From contig NZ_FLRH01000003.1 in the NCBI RefSeq assembly GCF_900089585.1, positions 1,721,001 through 1,785,000 of the forward strand: a stretch of DNA of 64,000 bases, given 5' to 3'. This document shows, in pieces, positions 30,140-63,960 of this stretch (position 1 is its first letter; each line of letters begins with the position of its first letter). Below the pieces are notes generated by a model. The model saw only the letters and a list, made by a program, of their open reading frames with translations, was not told where the DNA came from and searched no databases. This DNA is from Micromonospora sediminicola. GTDB taxonomy: Bacteria; Actinomycetota; Actinomycetes; Mycobacteriales; Micromonosporaceae. The translations under genes were made by a program, and so were the position numbers.

Positions 30140-31278
30140 TGCTGGAGTCCACCGTCGCGGCGATCCGGCCGCTCGACGAGGCGGCCATGGCGGCCGCGCG
30201 TGAGTTGCAGGGCCGGCTGACCAAGCCCGCCGGCTCGCTCGGCGCCCTGGAGCCGCTCTCGGTACGCCTCGCCGGGCTGGCCGGCGCCTGCCCGCCGCCG
30301 CTGCCCGACCAGGCCGCGGTGGCGATCTTCGCCGGGGACCACGGCGTGCACGCCCAGGGCGTGACCCCGTGGCCGCAGGAGGTCACCGCCCAGATGATCG
30401 GCAACTTCCTGGCCGGCGGCGCGGTGGTCAACGCGTTCGCCCGGCAGGCCGGCGCCTCGGTCACCGTGGTCGACGTCGGCGTGGCCACCCCGCTGTCGGT
30501 CACCCCGCCCGACCCGGCGGCGCGCGCCGCCGACCCGGCCGGCCCGTCCGCGCTCACCGTCGACGTCGTCGCGACGCCCGCCGACCCGGACGGGCCGCGC
30601 CTGGTGGCCGCGAACGTCCGCGCCGGCACCCGCGACATGACCGTCACCGCCGCGCTCACCCGGGACGAGGCCCGGGCGGCGGTGGAGACCGGCATCCGGG
30701 TCGCCGACGAGCTGGTCGACGGCGGCGCGGGCATCCTGCTCACCGGCGACATGGGCATCGGCAACACCACCCCGGCCGCCGCGCTGGTCGCCGTGTTCGC
30801 CGGGGCGGACGCGGCGGCGGCGACGGGCCGGGGCACCGGCGTGGACGACGAGACGTACGCGCGCAAGGTCGCCGTGGTCCGGGCCGCGCTGGCCCGGCAC
30901 ACGCCCGACCCGGCCGACCCGCTGGGCGTGCTCGCCTCGGTCGGCGGGCTGGAGCACGCCGCGCTGGCCGGCCTGATCCTCGGCGCCGCCGCGCGTCGGG
31001 TGCCGGTGCTGCTCGACGGCGTGATCGCGGTCAGCGCCGCGCTGGCCGCCGCCGCGTTCGCGCCGGACGCGGTCGGCGCCATGGTCGCCGGGCACCGCAG
31101 CGCCGAGCCGGGCGCCACGGCGGCGCTGCGGCACCTCGGGCTCGATCCGCTGATCGACCTGGGACTGCGCCTCGGTGAGGGCACCGGGGCCCTGCTCGCC
31201 CTGCCGGTCGTCACCGGCGCCGTCCGGGTGCTGCACGAGGTGGCCACGTTCGACGCGGCCGGGGTGGCCGAGAAGTGA
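30136..31278 (+). CDS. cobT: nicotinate-nucleotide-dimethylbenzimidazole phosphoribosyltransferase
   Basis: 380 aa. RLTKPAGSLGALEPL and AIFAGDHGVHAQGVTPWPQ at the N-terminus, LLTGDMGIGNTTPAAAL in the middle and LGLRLGEGTGALLALP with the catalytic Glu near the C-terminus identify CobT. It activates the lower base of cobalamin as alpha-ribazole phosphate. It is translationally coupled at both ends, by ATGA to the cobC-like gene and GTGA to cysG, so cobC-cobT-cysG form one operon. Confidence 0.93.
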   Translation: MMLESTVAAIRPLDEAAMAAARELQGRLTKPAGSLGALEPLSVRLAGLAGACPPPLPDQAAVAIFAGDHGVHAQGVTPWPQEVTAQMIGNFLAGGAVVNAFARQAGASVTVVDVGVATPLSVTPPDPAARAADPAGPSALTVDVVATPADPDGPRLVAANVRAGTRDMTVTAALTRDEARAAVETGIRVADELVDGGAGILLTGDMGIGNTTPAAALVAVFAGADAAAATGRGTGVDDETYARKVAVVRAALARHTPDPADPLGVLASVGGLEHAALAGLILGAAARRVPVLLDGVIAVSAALAAAAFAPDAVGAMVAGHRSAEPGATAALRHLGLDPLIDLGLRLGEGTGALLALPVVTGAVRVLHEVATFDAAGVAEK

Positions 31279-32528
31279 GTGAGCCGGCCCCGGAGGCGTC
31301 GCCCAGCCCGTACCCCCTGGGGTTGCGGCTGGCCGGCCGGCGCGTGGTCGTGGTGGGCGGGGGAGCGGTCGCCACCCGGCGGGTGCCCGCGCTGCTCGAC
31401 GCGGGCGCGGACGTCCTGCTGGTGTCGCCCGAGCTGACCCCGGCGCTGCGCGCGCACGCCGACGCCGGCCGGCTGCGCTGGGAGCCGCGCCGGTTCGCCC
31501 CCGGCGACCTGGACGGCGCCTGGCTGGTCCAGGTGGCGGTGGACGACCGGGTGGCCGCCGCGGCGGTCAGCGCGGCCGCGGCCGAACGGCGGATCTTCTG
31601 CGTCCGCGCCGACGACCGGGCCGCCGCCAGCGCCTGGACGCCCGCCGTGACCCGGCACGGCCCGGTGACCGTGGCCGTCCTCGGCGGCGGCGACCCGCGC
31701 CGGGCGATGACCGTCCGCAACGCCGTCCGCGACCTCCTGGGCGCAAGGAAGGGCCCCTTGTTAACGCCTCCGGTAGAGGAAGGGGCCCCTTTTAACACCA
31801 CGGGCGGTCGGGTTGCGCTGGTGGGCGCCGGGCCGGGCGATCCGGAGCTGATCACCGTGAAGGGCTGGCGGCTGCTCACCGAGGCCGAGGTGGTGGTCGC
31901 CGACCGGCTCGTCCCGGGGCTGCTCCTGGACGAGTTGCGGCCGGACGTCGAGCTGGTGGACGCCTCGAAGATCCCGTACGGGCCGTCGCGCACCCAGGAG
32001 GAGATCAACCGCATCCTGGTGGACCGGGCCCGGGCCGGCAAGGTGGTGGTCCGGCTCAAGGGCGGCGACCCGTACGTCTTCGGGCGCGGCGGCGAGGAGT
32101 TGCTGGCCTGCGCCGAGGCCGGTGTGCCGGTGACCGTGGTCCCGGGGGTCACCAGCGCGGTCGCGGTGCCCGGGGTGGCCGGCGTGCCGGTGACCCACCG
32201 GGGCGTGGCGCACGAGTTCACCGTGGTCTCCGGACACGTCGCACCGGATTCGCCGGCGTCGCTCGTGCGCTGGGAGGCCCTGGCCGGGCTGCGCGGCACG
32301 CTGGTGGTCCTGATGGGCCTGAAGAACCTGGCCGCGATCGCCGCCACCCTGATCGCGCACGGCAAGCCGGCCGACACCCCGGCCGCGGTGATCCAGGAGG
32401 GCACCACCGCCGCCCAGCGGACGCTGCGCTCAACCCTCGCCACGGTCGCCGCCGACGTCGAGGCCGCCGCGCTGCGCCCGCCCGCGATCGTGGTGATCGG
32501 CGACGTGGTCCACGCCCTGACCCCCTGA
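31275..32528 (+). CDS. cysG: sirohaem synthase: precorrin-2 dehydrogenase fused to uroporphyrinogen-III methyltransferase
   Basis: 417 aa. Residues 1-155 are the NAD-dependent dehydrogenase/ferrochelatase half (RRVVVVGGGAVATRRV). Residues 178-417 are the SUMT half, with VALVGAGPGDPELITVKG, VRLKGGDPYVFGRGGEE and VPVTHRGV. The linker, residues 158-174, is encoded by a 52-bp dispersed repeat (31745-31796) read in frame. It makes precorrin-2 and can continue to sirohaem, feeding both cobalamin and sulfite/nitrite reductase cofactors. GTG start overlaps the cobT stop. Confidence 0.92.
   Translation: MSEPAPEASPSPYPLGLRLAGRRVVVVGGGAVATRRVPALLDAGADVLLVSPELTPALRAHADAGRLRWEPRRFAPGDLDGAWLVQVAVDDRVAAAAVSAAAAERRIFCVRADDRAAASAWTPAVTRHGPVTVAVLGGGDPRRAMTVRNAVRDLLGARKGPLLTPPVEEGAPFNTTGGRVALVGAGPGDPELITVKGWRLLTEAEVVVADRLVPGLLLDELRPDVELVDASKIPYGPSRTQEEINRILVDRARAGKVVVRLKGGDPYVFGRGGEELLACAEAGVPVTVVPGVTSAVAVPGVAGVPVTHRGVAHEFTVVSGHVAPDSPASLVRWEALAGLRGTLVVLMGLKNLAAIAATLIAHGKPADTPAAVIQEGTTAAQRTLRSTLATVAADVEAAALRPPAIVVIGDVVHALTP
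31745..31796 (+). repeat. 52-bp GGGGCCCC/TTAAC dispersed repeat inside cysG
   Basis: The unit begins AAGGAAGGGCCCC, has TTAACGCCTCCGGTAGAGG in the middle and ends GGGGCCCCTTTTAAC. Its first 35 nt match 63966-64000 apart from three positions, and the full unit aligns without gaps to the reverse complement of 46001-46052 (about three quarters identical). Here it is wholly coding, in the linker between the two CysG domains. Confidence 0.85.
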
Positions 32529-45921: not shown

Positions 45922-46000
45922 GGTTCCCCCCTCCCGGTGCGTCGGTGCACCGGAATCCTGCTGACGGGCAGCGAGGGCTGCGTTCCCGGACGGCGGGGGT

Positions 46001-46053
46001 GTTAACAGGGGGCCCCGCCCATACCGGAAGCGTTAAGCGGGGGCCCCGCCTTT
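46001..46053 (-). repeat. GGGGCCCC/TTAAC dispersed repeat overlapping the Lrp 3' end
   Basis: Read on the reverse strand the unit begins AAAGGCGGGGCCCCCGC, continues TTAACGCTTCCGGTAT and ends GGGGCCCCCTGTTAAC. It aligns gap-free over 52 nt to the cysG copy, with the same spacing of the two GGGGCCCC blocks. The first 21 nt encode the last six residues and the stop codon of the Lrp regulator. Confidence 0.8.
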
Positions 46054-46479
46054 CACGACCGGGTGCCAGGCCAGCGGGGTGGAGAGCACCATCGTGCTGG
46101 ACGGCTGGCCGTACGGGGCGAGCCGGTCGATGACCTCCTCGAACTCGCCCATCGACCCGGCCGCGACCTTGAGGAAGCTGCACGCGTCACCGGTGATCCG
46201 GTGGATCTCCATGATCTCCGGCCACTGCGCCACCCGGGGGTCGTTGAGGATGCAGCGCGAGCCGTAACAGGACATTCGGATCAGCGCCAGCACGGTCCGC
46301 CCGGCCCGGGTGAGGTCCACGTGGGCGTGGTAACCGGTGATCACCCCGGACTCCTCCAGCCGCCGGACCCGCTCCGCGACCGCCGGCGGGGACAGGTGCA
46401 CCCGGCGGGACAACTCGCTGTAGGAGAGCCGGGCGTCGGCCTGGAGCTCGCGCAGCAGCGCCCAGTCCATGTCGTCCAC
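46033..46479 (-). CDS. Lrp/AsnC-family regulator, likely of the kynurenine operon
   Basis: 148 aa. An N-terminal winged HTH (LLRELQADARLSYSELSRRV, LSPPAVAERVRRLEESGVI) precedes a RAM/AsnC ligand domain with IHRITGDACSFLKV. The C-terminus KGGAPA and stop come from a dispersed repeat. AAGGAAGG lies before the GTG at 46479; an ATG three codons later is possible. It is divergent from tryptophan dioxygenase with a 147-nt shared region, the layout of KynR-type control by kynurenine; that ligand is inferred. Confidence 0.88.
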   Translation of the reverse strand: MDDMDWALLRELQADARLSYSELSRRVHLSPPAVAERVRRLEESGVITGYHAHVDLTRAGRTVLALIRMSCYGSRCILNDPRVAQWPEIMEIHRITGDACSFLKVAAGSMGEFEEVIDRLAPYGQPSSTMVLSTPLAWHPVVKGGAPA

Positions 46480-47519: not shown

Positions 47520-48854
47520 ATGCACACCCCCGAGAGCGAAGCCCACCGGCGGGACGCCGCCGATCCCGGCCACCGCCACCTGTTCCACGTGCCGCCGGCC
47601 GAGGGCGGGCGCCATCCCGACGTGGCGTACCTGGCCGGCAACTCGCTGGGCCTGCAACCCCGGGCCACCCGGGACGAACTCGTCGCCGACCTGGACGCCT
47701 GGCGCCGACTCGGCGTGGAGGGGCACCTGGAGGCGGAGCGGGCCTGGCTGCCGTACCACGAGCTGTTGACCGCACCGGCCGCGCGCCTGGTCGGCGCGCT
47801 GCCCACCGAGACCGTGGTGATGAACTCCCTCACGGTCAACCTGCACCTGCTGATGGTCAGCTTCTACCGCCCAGCGGGGGAGCGCACGACGATCGTCATC
47901 GAGGACAGCGCGTTCCCGTCGGACAGCTACGCGGTGCGCAGCCAGGCCCGCTTCCACGGCCTCGACCCGGGCGCCACGGTGGTGCGGCTCAAGCCCCGCC
48001 CCGGCAGCGACACGCTGGGCACGCAGGACGTCCTGGACTACCTGGCCCGCGAGGGGCACACGGTCGCGCTGCTGCTGCTCGGCGGCGTCAACTACCTGAC
48101 CGGCGAGCTGATGGACATTCCGGCGATCACCGCCGCCGGCCGGGCCGCCGGGGCGGTCGTCGGCTGGGACCTGGCGCACGCCGCCGGCAACGTGCCGCTG
48201 GCGCTGCACGACTGGGACGTCGACTTCGCCGCCTGGTGCTCGTACAAATACCTGAACTCCGGCCCGGGTGCCCTGGGCGGCGTCTTCGTCCACGAGCGAC
48301 ACCACGGCGACCCCTCGCTGCCGAGGTTCGAGGGCTGGTGGAGCACCGAGGCGGCCACCCGGTTCGAGATGACACCGGTGTCCCGGCCGCCGGCCACCGT
48401 CGAGGCGTGGCAGATCTCCAACCCGCCGATCTTCGCGATGGGCCCGGTGCGCACCTCGCTGGAGCTGTTCGACTCCGTCGGCATGCCCGCGCTGCGCGAG
48501 CGCAGCCTGCGGCTGACCGGCTGGCTGGAGGAACTGCTCGACGAGGTGACCCCGGGTCGGCCGCTGACCGTGGTCACCCCCCGCGACCCGGCCCGCCGCG
48601 GGTGCCAGCTCTCCGTCCGCATCGGTACGGGCAGCGCGAACGAGCTGACCAAGCGGCTGCGACACGAGCACGGCGTGATCGCCGACGCCCGGGAGCCGGA
48701 CATCGTCCGGTTCGCCCCGGTGCCCCTCTACTCGACGTACCACGACTGCTGGCGCGTCGCCGACGCGCTCGCCGCGACCGTGCCGGTGAGCGCGAGGAGT
48801 GAGCCGGGTTTGCGAGCCCCGCAGTCGCGAACGGAAGGCGGGCATTCCCGATGA
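47520..48854 (+). CDS. kynU: kynureninase with repeat-encoded C-terminal extension
   Basis: 444 aa PLP enzyme cleaving (3-hydroxy)kynurenine to (3-hydroxy)anthranilate and alanine. LAGNSLGLQPRAT, VVMNSLTVNLHLLM, VGWDLAHAAGNVPL and the Schiff-base lysine in WCSYKYLNSGPG (K243) are conserved. GGAGAG precedes ATG 47520. The last about 22 residues, from [12 protein letters not shown] onward, come from a 51-bp repeat read through in frame and extend past the usual end. The stop overlaps kmo (ATGA). Confidence 0.93.
   Translation: MHTPESEAHRRDAADPGHRHLFHVPPAEGGRHPDVAYLAGNSLGLQPRATRDELVADLDAWRRLGVEGHLEAERAWLPYHELLTAPAARLVGALPTETVVMNSLTVNLHLLMVSFYRPAGERTTIVIEDSAFPSDSYAVRSQARFHGLDPGATVVRLKPRPGSDTLGTQDVLDYLAREGHTVALLLLGGVNYLTGELMDIPAITAAGRAAGAVVGWDLAHAAGNVPLALHDWDVDFAAWCSYKYLNSGPGALGGVFVHERHHGDPSLPRFEGWWSTEAATRFEMTPVSRPPATVEAWQISNPPIFAMGPVRTSLELFDSVGMPALRERSLRLTGWLEELLDEVTPGRPLTVVTPRDPARRGCQLSVRIGTGSANELTKRLRHEHGVIADAREPDIVRFAPVPLYSTYHDCWRVADALAATVPVSARSEPGLRAPQSRTEGGHSR
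48786..48836 (+). repeat. 51-bp repeat, copy A, at the kynureninase 3' end
   Basis: Begins GTGAGCGCGAGGAGTGAGCC and ends GCAGTCGCGAACGGAA; identical over all 51 nt to 55280-55330. Here it is read within kynU and adds [16 protein letters not shown] to its C-terminus. It lies 14 nt before the kmo start. Confidence 0.9.
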
Positions 48855-54513: not shown

Positions 54514-55283
54514 TCGGGCCGGACATCGCCGGCATCGCGGAGAAGCTGGGTGCGGCGGCCGACGACGCCACCGCGATCCCGCAGCTCGCCGCCGAGACCG
54601 GCCTCGACGTCGACGCCGCGTACGCGGTGCAGACCGCGCTGGTGCAGCGCCGCCTGGACCGGGGTGAGCGGCTGGTCGGCCTCAAGATGGGGCTCACCAG
54701 CAAGGCCAAGATGGCCCAGGTCGGTGTGGACGAGGTGATCTGGGGCCGGCTGACCGACGTGATGCGGGTGCCCGACGGCGGCGGCGTCGACGTGAGCGCG
54801 TTCATCCACCCCCGGGTCGAGCCGGAGGTGGCGTTCCTGCTAAACCGGCTGCCCGACCCGGGCGAGCCGGTCGGCTCGTTCACCCGGGCGGTGCGCGCGG
54901 TCGCCCCGGCGATCGAACTGATCGACTCCCGGTACGCGAACTTCACCTTCTCCCTGCCGGACGTGGTCGCCGACAACACCTCGGCCGCCGCGTTCGTGGT
55001 CGGTCCCTGGTCGCCGGTGCCGGACGGGCTGGACAACCTCGGCGTGCTGCTGGAGATCGACGGGCGGGTGGCGCAGGTCGGGTCGACCGCCGCCATCCTC
55101 GGTGACCCGCGCCGCGCGCTCGACGAGGGCCTCCGGCTGGCCGGCCGGCACGGCGTCCGGCTGCGCAAGGGCTGGGTGTTCCTGGCCGGCGCGGCCACCG
55201 CCGCGGTGCCGCTACGCCCCGGGGCGCACGTCCGCGCCACTGTGGAGAAGCTGGGTTCCGCCTCCCTGAAGGCGCTCTCGTGA
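54510..55283 (+). CDS. 4-oxalocrotonate decarboxylase
   Basis: 257 aa, paralogous to the hydratase four genes upstream (FAH fold): [29 protein letters not shown] and [21 protein letters not shown]. In meta-cleavage pathways this decarboxylase forms a complex with the hydratase and turns 2-oxo-3-hexenedioate into oxopentenoate. Placement between aldolase and deaminase supports that assignment. Starts at an ATGA overlap and ends in GTGA with the RidA gene. Confidence 0.9.
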
Positions 55284-55330
55284 GCGCGAGGAGTGAGCCG
55301 GGTTTGCGAGCCCCGCAGTCGCGAACGGAA
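55280..55330 (+). repeat. 51-bp repeat, copy B, at the RidA 5' end
   Basis: Identical over 51 nt and in the same orientation and reading phase as 48786-48836. Here its first GTG is the start codon of the RidA gene, and its GTGA forms the coupling overlap with the decarboxylase stop. Confidence 0.9.
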
Positions 55331-55765
55331 AGCGGCCCGGCGACCGCCCGCGTGGTGGCCGGGAAGGCCGTGCCGCGGGGCGCGTTCCCGCACGTCAAGG
55401 TGGCCGGCGGGTTCGTCTTCGTCTCCGGCACGTCATCCCGCCGCCCGGACAACACGTTCGCCGGGGTGTCGGTGGACGAGTTCGGCACCACCGACCTGGA
55501 CATCCGGGAGCAGACCCGGGCCGTGGTCGGGAACATCCGGGACCTGCTCCGCTCGGTCGGCGCCGACCTGGCCGACCTGGTGCAGGTCACCAGCTACCTG
55601 GTCAACATGAACGACTTCGGTGGCTACAACGAGGTGTGGGCGGAGTTCTTCGACGCCACCGGGCCGACCCGGACCACGGTGGCCGTGCACCAGCTTCCGC
55701 ACCCGCACCTGCTGATCGAGATGCAGGCCGTCGCCCTACTTCCGTCGGGAGGTCCCCATGAGTGA
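55280..55765 (+). CDS. RidA-family 2-aminomuconate deaminase
   Basis: 161 aa. From about residue 25 it is a RidA/YjgF protein: [41 protein letters not shown] and a closing [13 protein letters not shown] with the substrate-binding Arg/Glu positions typical of the AmnD/NbaF deaminase group. The first 17 residues ([16 protein letters not shown] after the GTG) are encoded by a 51-bp repeat whose GTGA also overlaps the previous stop. Translation might instead begin at an internal GTG. Confidence 0.88.
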
Positions 55766-63336: not shown

Positions 63337-63960
63337 GTGACCGAACGTGTCACCGCGGACATGTGGTTCGACCCGCTGTGCCCGTGGGCGTGGATCACCT
63401 CCCGCTGGCTGCTGGAGGTCGAGCAGGTCCGGGACGTGGACATCCGGTTCCACGTGATGAGCCTGGCCGTGCTCAACGAGGGCCGGGACCTGCCCGAGGA
63501 GTACCAGGACCTGATGCGCAAGGGCTGGGGTCCGGTGCGGGTGTGCATCGCCGTCGAGCAGGCCCACGGGGCCGAGGCGCTGGCGAAGCTCTACACCGCC
63601 ATGGGCACCCGGATCCACCTCGGCAAGGAGGAGCTGGGTCGGGACATGCTGGTCGGCGCGCTCACCGATGTCGGCCTGGACCCGGCGCTCGCCGACGCGG
63701 CCGAGTCGACGCAGTACGACGACGCGCTGCGGGCCAGCCACGAGGCGGGCATGCGGCCGGTCGGCACCGAGGTGGGCACCCCGGTGGTCCACGCCCCGGG
63801 GCCGGACGGCCGGCAGGTGGCGTTCTTCGGTCCGGTGATCACGCCGGCGCCGAAGGGGGAGGCGGCCGGCCGCCTCTGGGACGGCGTGCTGCTGGTCTCC
63901 GCGACGCCGGGCTTCTACGAGCTCAAGCGCACCCGCACCCAGGGCCCCATCTTCGACTGA
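63337..63960 (+). CDS. DsbA-family protein, mycothiol-dependent nitroreductase-like
   Basis: 207 aa. ADMWFDPLCPWAWITSRWLLEV at the N-terminus, then FHVMSLAVLNEGRDLP, WGPVRVCIAVEQAHG and GTPVVHAPG match the Rv2466c family throughout. As I recall, the mycobacterial active site is CPWC; here it reads CPWA, so the resolving cysteine is missing and a monothiol mechanism with mycothiol is suggested. AAGGGATG precedes the GTG. Divergent from pepN; a dispersed repeat begins just after its stop. Confidence 0.88.
   Translation: MTERVTADMWFDPLCPWAWITSRWLLEVEQVRDVDIRFHVMSLAVLNEGRDLPEEYQDLMRKGWGPVRVCIAVEQAHGAEALAKLYTAMGTRIHLGKEELGRDMLVGALTDVGLDPALADAAESTQYDDALRASHEAGMRPVGTEVGTPVVHAPGPDGRQVAFFGPVITPAPKGEAAGRLWDGVLLVSATPGFYELKRTRTQGPIFD

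Follow-up and report, generated by a model that had tools for sequence, protein, structure and literature searches.

Palindromic repeats read in frame within proteins have been considered a possible source of new peptides, and the cysG gene of Micromonospora sediminicola raises the matter in a direct form: is a dispersed repeat that is read through as part of a protein kept for the peptide that it encodes, or for its DNA? The gene lies in a stretch of 64,000 nucleotides (the window), for which an earlier note had proposed that an intergenic palindromic element was captured as the linker of CysG and exapted as peptide.

The repeat within cysG and its place in the protein

The cysG gene (31275..32528, plus strand; 417 aa with a GTG start, from the ORF list and Pfam) encodes a fused protein, NAD-binding of the precorrin-2 dehydrogenase type and tetrapyrrole methylase, whose best solved relatives are siroheme synthases (1pjq). 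The repeat copy occupies 31745..31799 on the plus strand (AAGGAAGGGCCCCTTGTTAACGCCTCCGGTAGAGGAAGGGGCCCCTTTTAACACC), running from AAGGAAGGGCCCC to CCTTTTAACACC, and its 55 bp, slightly more than the 52 bp previously assigned to it, lie wholly within the 417 codons. It is read in frame and without a stop as residues 158-175 (RKGPLLTPPVEEGAPFNT). Because the Pfam domains cover residues 17-124 (NAD_binding_7) and 180-391 (TP_methylase), the repeat sits between the two halves of an otherwise intact protein and forms part of the inter-domain linker, as the earlier note had said. Against a profile made from 98 other copies, the cysG copy scored 67.8 bits with a match spanning the whole repeat, and a covariance model, in which the cysG copy was itself included, matched at the same place (G000:C3:1752743-1752801). 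Its two hairpin arms fall at 31746..31793 (plus strand), where model columns 4-20 pair, imperfectly, with columns 35-51. An Rfam scan of five loci gave a single match, which was below the gathering score (31.1 vs 59 bits) and was not at the repeat.

Together with the peptide, the repeat supplies an in-frame TTA leucine codon at residue 163 (31761..31763, plus strand). This triplet is scarce in the window, where the 12,635 codons of 29 coding-like open frames include 2 TTA. One of the two is residue 163 of CysG; the other, at 46005, precedes the likely start of its frame and was not counted as coding. The aligned remainder of CysG is without any further TTA in 60 of 61 genomes.

In a structure model of CysG, built with 24 sequences and having a mean pLDDT of 70 and a pTM of 0.38, residues 158-176 are predicted with pLDDT below 50 as neither helix nor strand, and are flanked by a helix (141-156) and a strand (179-186). 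The model fits a floppy inter-domain tether that would tolerate an in-frame insert.

The element recurs in the window as had been claimed, with two matches to a 31-base pattern at up to 3 mismatches compared to none in 100 shuffles. The copy placed by the earlier note at 46001-46053 is real, although it is on the minus strand and more diverged. As delimited here (45998..46056), it gives the C-terminus VKGGAPA and a TAA stop to an AsnC/Lrp-type regulator gene (46033..46479, minus strand; PF13404 and PF01037), whose 3' end is within the repeat, by way of the left arm. The description of the repeat as dispersed and palindromic stands, and it is mostly found at gene ends; this copy is not purely intergenic. 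A third copy (L026; 63966..64000, plus strand) is cut by the window end and continues beyond it; a TGA at 63958-63960 begins 8 nt before its left end. In genome G064, the AsnC/Lrp-type gene lacks the repeat at the orthologous place and ends differently.

Anatomy and placement of the family

In the 6.9 Mb of the window genome (G000, five contigs), the core TTAACGCCTNNNGTAGAGG has 118 matches with up to 2 mismatches, compared to 2 for a reversed control. The set that we examined consists of 99 copies of at least 118, with two-mismatch places lying outside the set. Within these 99, the blocks AAGG, TTAAC, and GTAG are invariant or nearly so, although for TTAAC and GTAG this is partly because the search pattern required them. 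Among the matches listed, copies were sparse at about 2.6-4.3 Mb of G000:C3 relative to the rest of this largest contig.

Alignment of the 99 copies revealed two complementary arms around a TTAAC...GTAGAG loop, and one long hairpin common to the set is supported, with mixed controls. The number of cells changed on both sides was 51, compared to 32.7 in shuffles (0/500 as high), and slid versions of the hairpin gave only 0-10 cells with two-sided changes. Paired cells amounted to 85.9% vs 84.7% in shuffles (again 0/500 as high). The covariation score of 0.089 was likewise reached by none of 500 shuffles, but it was higher at slides of +1 (0.111) and +3 (0.122), and neither covarying pairs nor pair types were more numerous in the 99-copy alignment than in shuffles (128 and 108 of 500, respectively). 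An arrangement of two local hairpins instead of the long one was rejected, its covariation being as in shuffles (254/500 as high). When six copies were folded singly, three were far below shuffles (z of -4.4, -4.6, and -5.6) and two slightly below (-1.3 and -1.7); the cysG copy folded alone was no better than shuffles (z -0.65). The near-invariant GTAG is located in the loop between the long arms and might be taken for a tag belonging to the right-hand half. Terminal inverted repeats are present and imperfect (GTGTAAGGAAGGG.../...CTTAACACC).

In 74 of the 99 copies, a sense upstream stop codon is found 1-11 nt before the left end, compared to 32 of 11880 random points taken 75-500 nt away. The favoured stop offsets, -1 (29 copies), -8 (18), and -3 (16), represent one per frame, and at -1 the AA of the element itself completes a TAA. 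With genes called by a simple codon score without annotation, 43 copies lie between convergent genes, 36 are 3' of a gene in sense and 8 in antisense, 6 are elsewhere, and 6 of the 99 examined, as judged by coding character on both sides, are inside ORFs; this last figure is the tally of coding versus non-coding copies that the earlier note had suggested. Just past the stop codon, a T-rich tract follows the hairpin, a terminator-like layout. This placement supports, short of proof, a putative role of the gene-end copies as terminators. At one orthologous site that is free of the element, an ordinary GC-rich hairpin was seen by eye after the same stop in five genomes (G095, G037, G085, G049, and G131); the L008 site in G064 looked similar by eye, with a match limited to the upstream flank at 69%. 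If the element is a terminator, it would constitute a mobile, sequence-conserved terminator family in Micromonospora, with a bearing on work on gene ends and expression.

Six copies (L001, L006, L009, L013, L016, and L021) are compound, with an element followed by an inverted extra half. In these, a gene that converges on the copy from the far side likewise has its end beside a left-type half.

The six read-through copies are in the genes for CysG, a CcdA/DsbD-like membrane protein (DsbD_TM match under its cut-off), a kinase-like protein (weak Pfam match, under cut-off), a UbiA-type protein, a carotenoid-synthesis protein of family PF04240 (CruF-type), and a P450-type protein. Three are read in sense and three in antisense, mostly in the frame that is free of stops in the orientation concerned; copy L004 is in a different frame, and its right end reads TTGTC rather than TTAAC. 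For cysG, the CcdA-like gene, and the CruF-type gene, the insert is in frame, the protein is otherwise intact, and insert-free orthologues exist. The cysG copy is not a single case.

The CruF-type gene offers a comparison of filled and empty sites. Among 30 genomes that we selected, it is filled in six (G000, G018, G072, G102, G127, and G141), a state that needs three changes on the tree, and the site measures 60 nt in the window genome compared to 15 nt in the empty G064. By eye, no target site duplication was seen at this filled/empty site or at the other sites inspected. The analysis found no mobiliser: a RAYT transposase (Y1_Tnp, PF01797) was considered and was rejected, as PF01797 has no match in the window genome itself. 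It is present in 44 of 151 genus genomes; repeat-rich genomes were listed both without it (G001, G003, G007, and G019) and with it (G006, G138, G139, and G150).

Fate of the cysG copy across Micromonospora

To follow the cysG copy in relatives, we used a linker profile built without the window copy and took a score of at least 40 bits as intact. The 61 genomes were that of the window and 60 picked by us, not at random, from 150 other genus genomes, with no row dropped from the counts. Orthologues with and without the segment were both found: 36 of the 61 scored at least 40 bits, 7 scored 17-39 bits, and 18 gave nothing. Among 80 named records, seven reached 40 bits, all of them Micromonospora (M. 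mirobrigensis, M. zingiberis, M. chalcea, M. phaseoli, and three further species), and every record from outside the genus was below 40, including those of Salinispora, Actinoplanes, Dactylosporangium, and Streptomyces. With the covariance model, matches to the element itself were obtained in 31 of 121 genomes and 10 of 44 genera of the family sample (E up to 1e-6). The cysG copy is therefore neither recent nor unique, and it occurs in a large part of the genus sample.

Its age alone could suggest an ancestral protein sequence that only resembles the repeat, and the earlier note had reasoned that the same linker peptide in distant actinobacteria, encoded by unrelated DNA, would speak for such an origin. 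This was not what we found. The non-Micromonospora linkers inspected are unrelated, those of Streptomyces and Actinoplanes being short, and Catellatospora and other records likewise have short unrelated linkers. Moreover, the DNA match extends over the whole repeat, and there are other genes in which this DNA is read through in reverse orientation. We give an ancestral origin practically no credence.

We then compared the state of the cysG copy with the abundance of the family in the same genome. Because a strict pattern missed diverged copies in G064, the family was recounted with the covariance model in 40 of the 61 genomes, chosen by us; at most 138 candidates were scored per genome, so that high counts are lower bounds. 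By this count, the cysG copy is intact in 15 of 19 rich genomes (at least 90 hits) and in 0 of 21 poor ones (fewer than 50). The other 21 genomes were classed as rich by the strict pattern (at least 2 hits), and in each of them the cysG copy is intact, which brings the figures to 36 of 40 rich and 0 of 21 poor. The TTA at this codon follows suit, being present in 34 of 40 repeat-rich and 0 of 21 repeat-poor genomes. The exceptions among rich genomes are G017, G041, and G091, which have no cysG copy, and G064, in which the copy is diverged.

The association holds when shared ancestry is taken into account. On a tree of three neighbouring genes, independent pairs of genomes that differ in richness differed in cysG the same way in 8.4 of 10 pairs and the opposite way in none (median p about 0.008). 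The corresponding test with the strict pattern agrees, with 8.5 of 11 pairs going the same way (median p 0.004); a pair going the opposite way was obtained once in each of two of 200 pairings and otherwise not at all. Loss in parallel in about eight or nine independent pairs turns the search for the responsible factor into a concrete question of gene presence.

Genome G064 could have been taken as free of the repeat, with a count of 0 by the strict pattern. We rejected this, as the profile gives 13 hits (E <1e-3), in diverged form, distributed over 12 places within 400 kb. Its diverged copies (L261-L280, in 400 kb) have, for example, GTAGCGG and GCAGAGG cores. At the L023 site, G064 has a half-size copy compared to the full copy in the window genome, as though the middle part between two GGGGCCCC repeats had dropped out.

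Residues and codons of the segment were compared among 33 of the 36 genomes with an intact copy (G025, G035, and G090 being left aside), a set that was chosen as intact and so favours the result. Residues of the segment differ between species more than those of the flanks (0.29 vs 0.11), yet where the residue is identical the codon is identical more often (0.89 in the segment vs 0.70 in the flanks). Even rare codons are kept in the segment, namely TTA in 32 of 33, AGG in 32 of 33, and GTA in 31 of 33.

In ten rich/rich sister pairs, all with intact copies and to that extent biased, 6 of 94 fourfold sites differ in the segment compared to 532 of 2700 elsewhere in cysG (p 5e-4); without a pair that shares a genome, the segment figure is 5 of 83. 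In eight rich/poor pairs, the segment differs at 20 of 48 sites and the rest at 367 of 2149 (p 7e-5). This excludes the pair G102/G064, since G064 is rich by the covariance model; with it, the figures are 20/56 and 406/2423. From these counts, the segment changes about 3 times more slowly than the flanking fourfold sites when the family is plentiful in both genomes and 2.4 times faster when it is scarce in one. The p values are indicative only, because we chose the pairs with the tree already in view and every rich/rich pair has intact copies.

In many species, the CcdA-like gene has the same peptide within the same loop, and a copy of at least 40 bits is present there in 17 of 20 rich genomes and 1 of 10 poor ones (G134). 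After correction for the tree, with 3.9 of six pairs going the same way and none the opposite, this was not significant (p 0.125).

We conclude that the cysG copy is conserved as DNA where the family is kept and is decayed or absent, with the reading frame retained, where the family is scarce. Because the residues vary, the codons are kept, and the segment decays where the family is scarce, it is apparently maintained as DNA along with the family. The earlier interpretation was therefore half right: the repeat has been captured as a linker, apparently held as DNA and not as an exapted peptide. It is this shared fate of coding copies with the rest of the family that makes the element of interest. 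Sister species with and without the family allow selection on the peptide to be separated from maintenance of the DNA, and the latter fits cysG better.

Competing explanations and known relatives

The reading we regard as probable is that of a dispersed Micromonospora gene-end hairpin element whose cysG copy is maintained as DNA, with the peptide as a tolerated passenger. The gene-end copies would then terminate transcription or form the 3' ends of mRNAs, and the element would have spread by replacing a little target DNA, leaving no target duplication. A few copies would have landed in genes and survived where a stop-free frame was used and the site was a floppy loop. In this way the inter-domain tether of CysG would have gained the peptide RKGPLLTPxVEEGxPxNT and a TTA codon, and something that acts on all copies together would maintain the copy in cysG. 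More tentatively, and with doubts that outweigh our confidence, we suggest that this something is one trans-acting factor reading all copies. Purifying selection on the cysG stretch would then operate at the level of DNA, indifferent to the protein; loss of the factor would lead to parallel erasure, including the cysG and CcdA-like copies, faster than drift at fourfold sites, and copies in the usual frame would plant a TTA wherever they are read.

Several other explanations were weighed against this gene-end element. That the repeat-encoded peptide is a functional linker under protein selection, as originally proposed, might seem to be favoured by the frame, which is kept in decayed copies too, and by the two intact domains of CysG. 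However, a kept frame is expected of any linker, and the linkers in other genus records differ freely in length and sequence, which, together with the predicted disorder of the segment, its variable residues and conserved synonymous choice, and the loss of the peptide along with the family in independent pairs, makes exaptation very unlikely. Scarcely better placed is gene conversion, in which other copies would repeatedly overwrite that in cysG. It would account for conservation with the family present and decay afterwards, and the core variant GGATTC found in cysG of several lineages is also found in other copies of G018, G072, and G102 and, in several genomes (e.g., G141 and G025), only outside cysG. 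Yet in at least eight genomes (G003, G005, G006, G054, G103, G138, G139, and G150) the sole exact GGATTC match is the one within the span of cysG, which is consistent with a core that was inherited vertically and not overwritten. The sharing of GGATTC noted above speaks the other way; conversion is disfavoured, and we hold it to be quite improbable.

Control specific to cysG could take the form of an attenuator or other regulatory RNA, in which the hairpin and its tail would end some transcripts between the two domains, or of regulation through the TTA codon, as bldA controls TTA codons in Streptomyces. The hairpin and T-rich tail common to gene-end copies are compatible with the former, and the prevalence of TTA at this codon in repeat-rich genomes, in a protein otherwise nearly devoid of it, with the latter. 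But the same repeat occurs in unrelated genes (CcdA-like, CruF-type, UbiA-type, and others), the cysG copy folds like shuffles, and its fate tracks the family and not cysG; we consider such control improbable. A motif recognised by a single trans-acting protein, for binding, chromosome organisation, or DNA uptake, with copies decaying upon its loss, agrees better with the co-decay across the tree, with DNA-level constraint in a coding region, and with the near-invariance of AAGG, TTAAC, and GTAG in the 99 copies, which in part stems from the search pattern. DNA uptake sequences are about 10 bp, much shorter than the 55-bp repeat. With about 100-140 copies, the family is also unlike uptake motifs in number, as these are present in hundreds to thousands per genome in the account available from PMC2346458. 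The likeness is in their coding and non-coding places and in inverted pairs that are predicted terminators (available portion of PMC3049150). Since the copies adjoin stop codons, which suggests that they serve at gene ends, and no candidate protein was identified, we regard a protein-binding or uptake-type motif as rather unlikely, if a reasonable contender.

Among described repeats, the gene-end element resembles REPs and RPEs. According to the portion of PMC3733652 available, REPs are located near the 3' ends of genes, often give stop codons, and are sometimes inside genes. The GTAG- and CGTC-tagged REPs described there are, like the element here, short palindromes 3' of genes or between convergent genes, with ends often supplying stop codons and with some in-frame copies. 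In being short, palindromic, multi-copy, and mostly extragenic, the element agrees with REPs. It differs in its 55-bp length with 17-bp arms and a conserved loop, in the lack of a RAYT-type PF01797 in its own genome, in stop abutment at three offsets, and in a coding copy whose state tracks the family across species. With a classical MITE it shares terminal inverted repeats, whereas target site duplication was not seen. Because the window genome lacks the RAYT family expected with GTAG REPs and no target duplication was seen, we assign the element neither to the GTAG REPs nor to the classical MITEs.

RPEs, as far as the accessible text of a review goes (PMC10969869), are about 150 bp long, lie inside ORFs in nearly half of cases, and are in frame in many Rickettsia proteins. 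The likeness, drawn from the descriptions in excerpts of PMC10969869 and PMC3733652, is that of a repeat in frame within unrelated proteins; here, in contrast, only the six ORF-internal copies are of this kind and most copies are at stop codons. The pneumococcal SPRITE repeat is terminator-like, with an 18 bp stem and enrichment at gene ends, in the part of PMC3049150 consulted, and shares with the present element a long stem, 3'-end enrichment, and a proposed co-option as terminator. SPRITE is AT-rich with a uridine-rich tract, whereas the Micromonospora repeat has GC-rich arms and a short TTCTTAAC-type tail, and coding copies are found here, with none described for SPRITE in that part of the paper. 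Given the REP, RPE, and SPRITE precedents, the kind of element is already known; this one behaves as a repeat of the REP/RPE type, placed as a terminator would be and with a putative function. Among the titles of the best matches in the open-licence literature, we found no such repeat described in Micromonospora and no precedent for coding and non-coding copies that share one fate among sister species; no open-licence paper combining 'Micromonospora' with 'miniature inverted-repeat' was found, and PMC3733652 does not mention Micromonospora, Salinispora, or Actinobacteria.

Finally, the window contains a second dispersed repeat (GAGCGCGAGGAGTGAGCC...GCGAGCCCCGCAGTCGCGAAC), with copies at 48786-48841 and 55280-55335 that are 98% identical. 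It has 40 matches in the window genome with up to 3 mismatches, compared to none for the reversed control, and several of these stand in short tandem runs with a spacing of about 59-60 nt. One copy (L142:6036-6080) is near the start of the CruF-type gene and is seemingly read as its N-terminus (15 residues).
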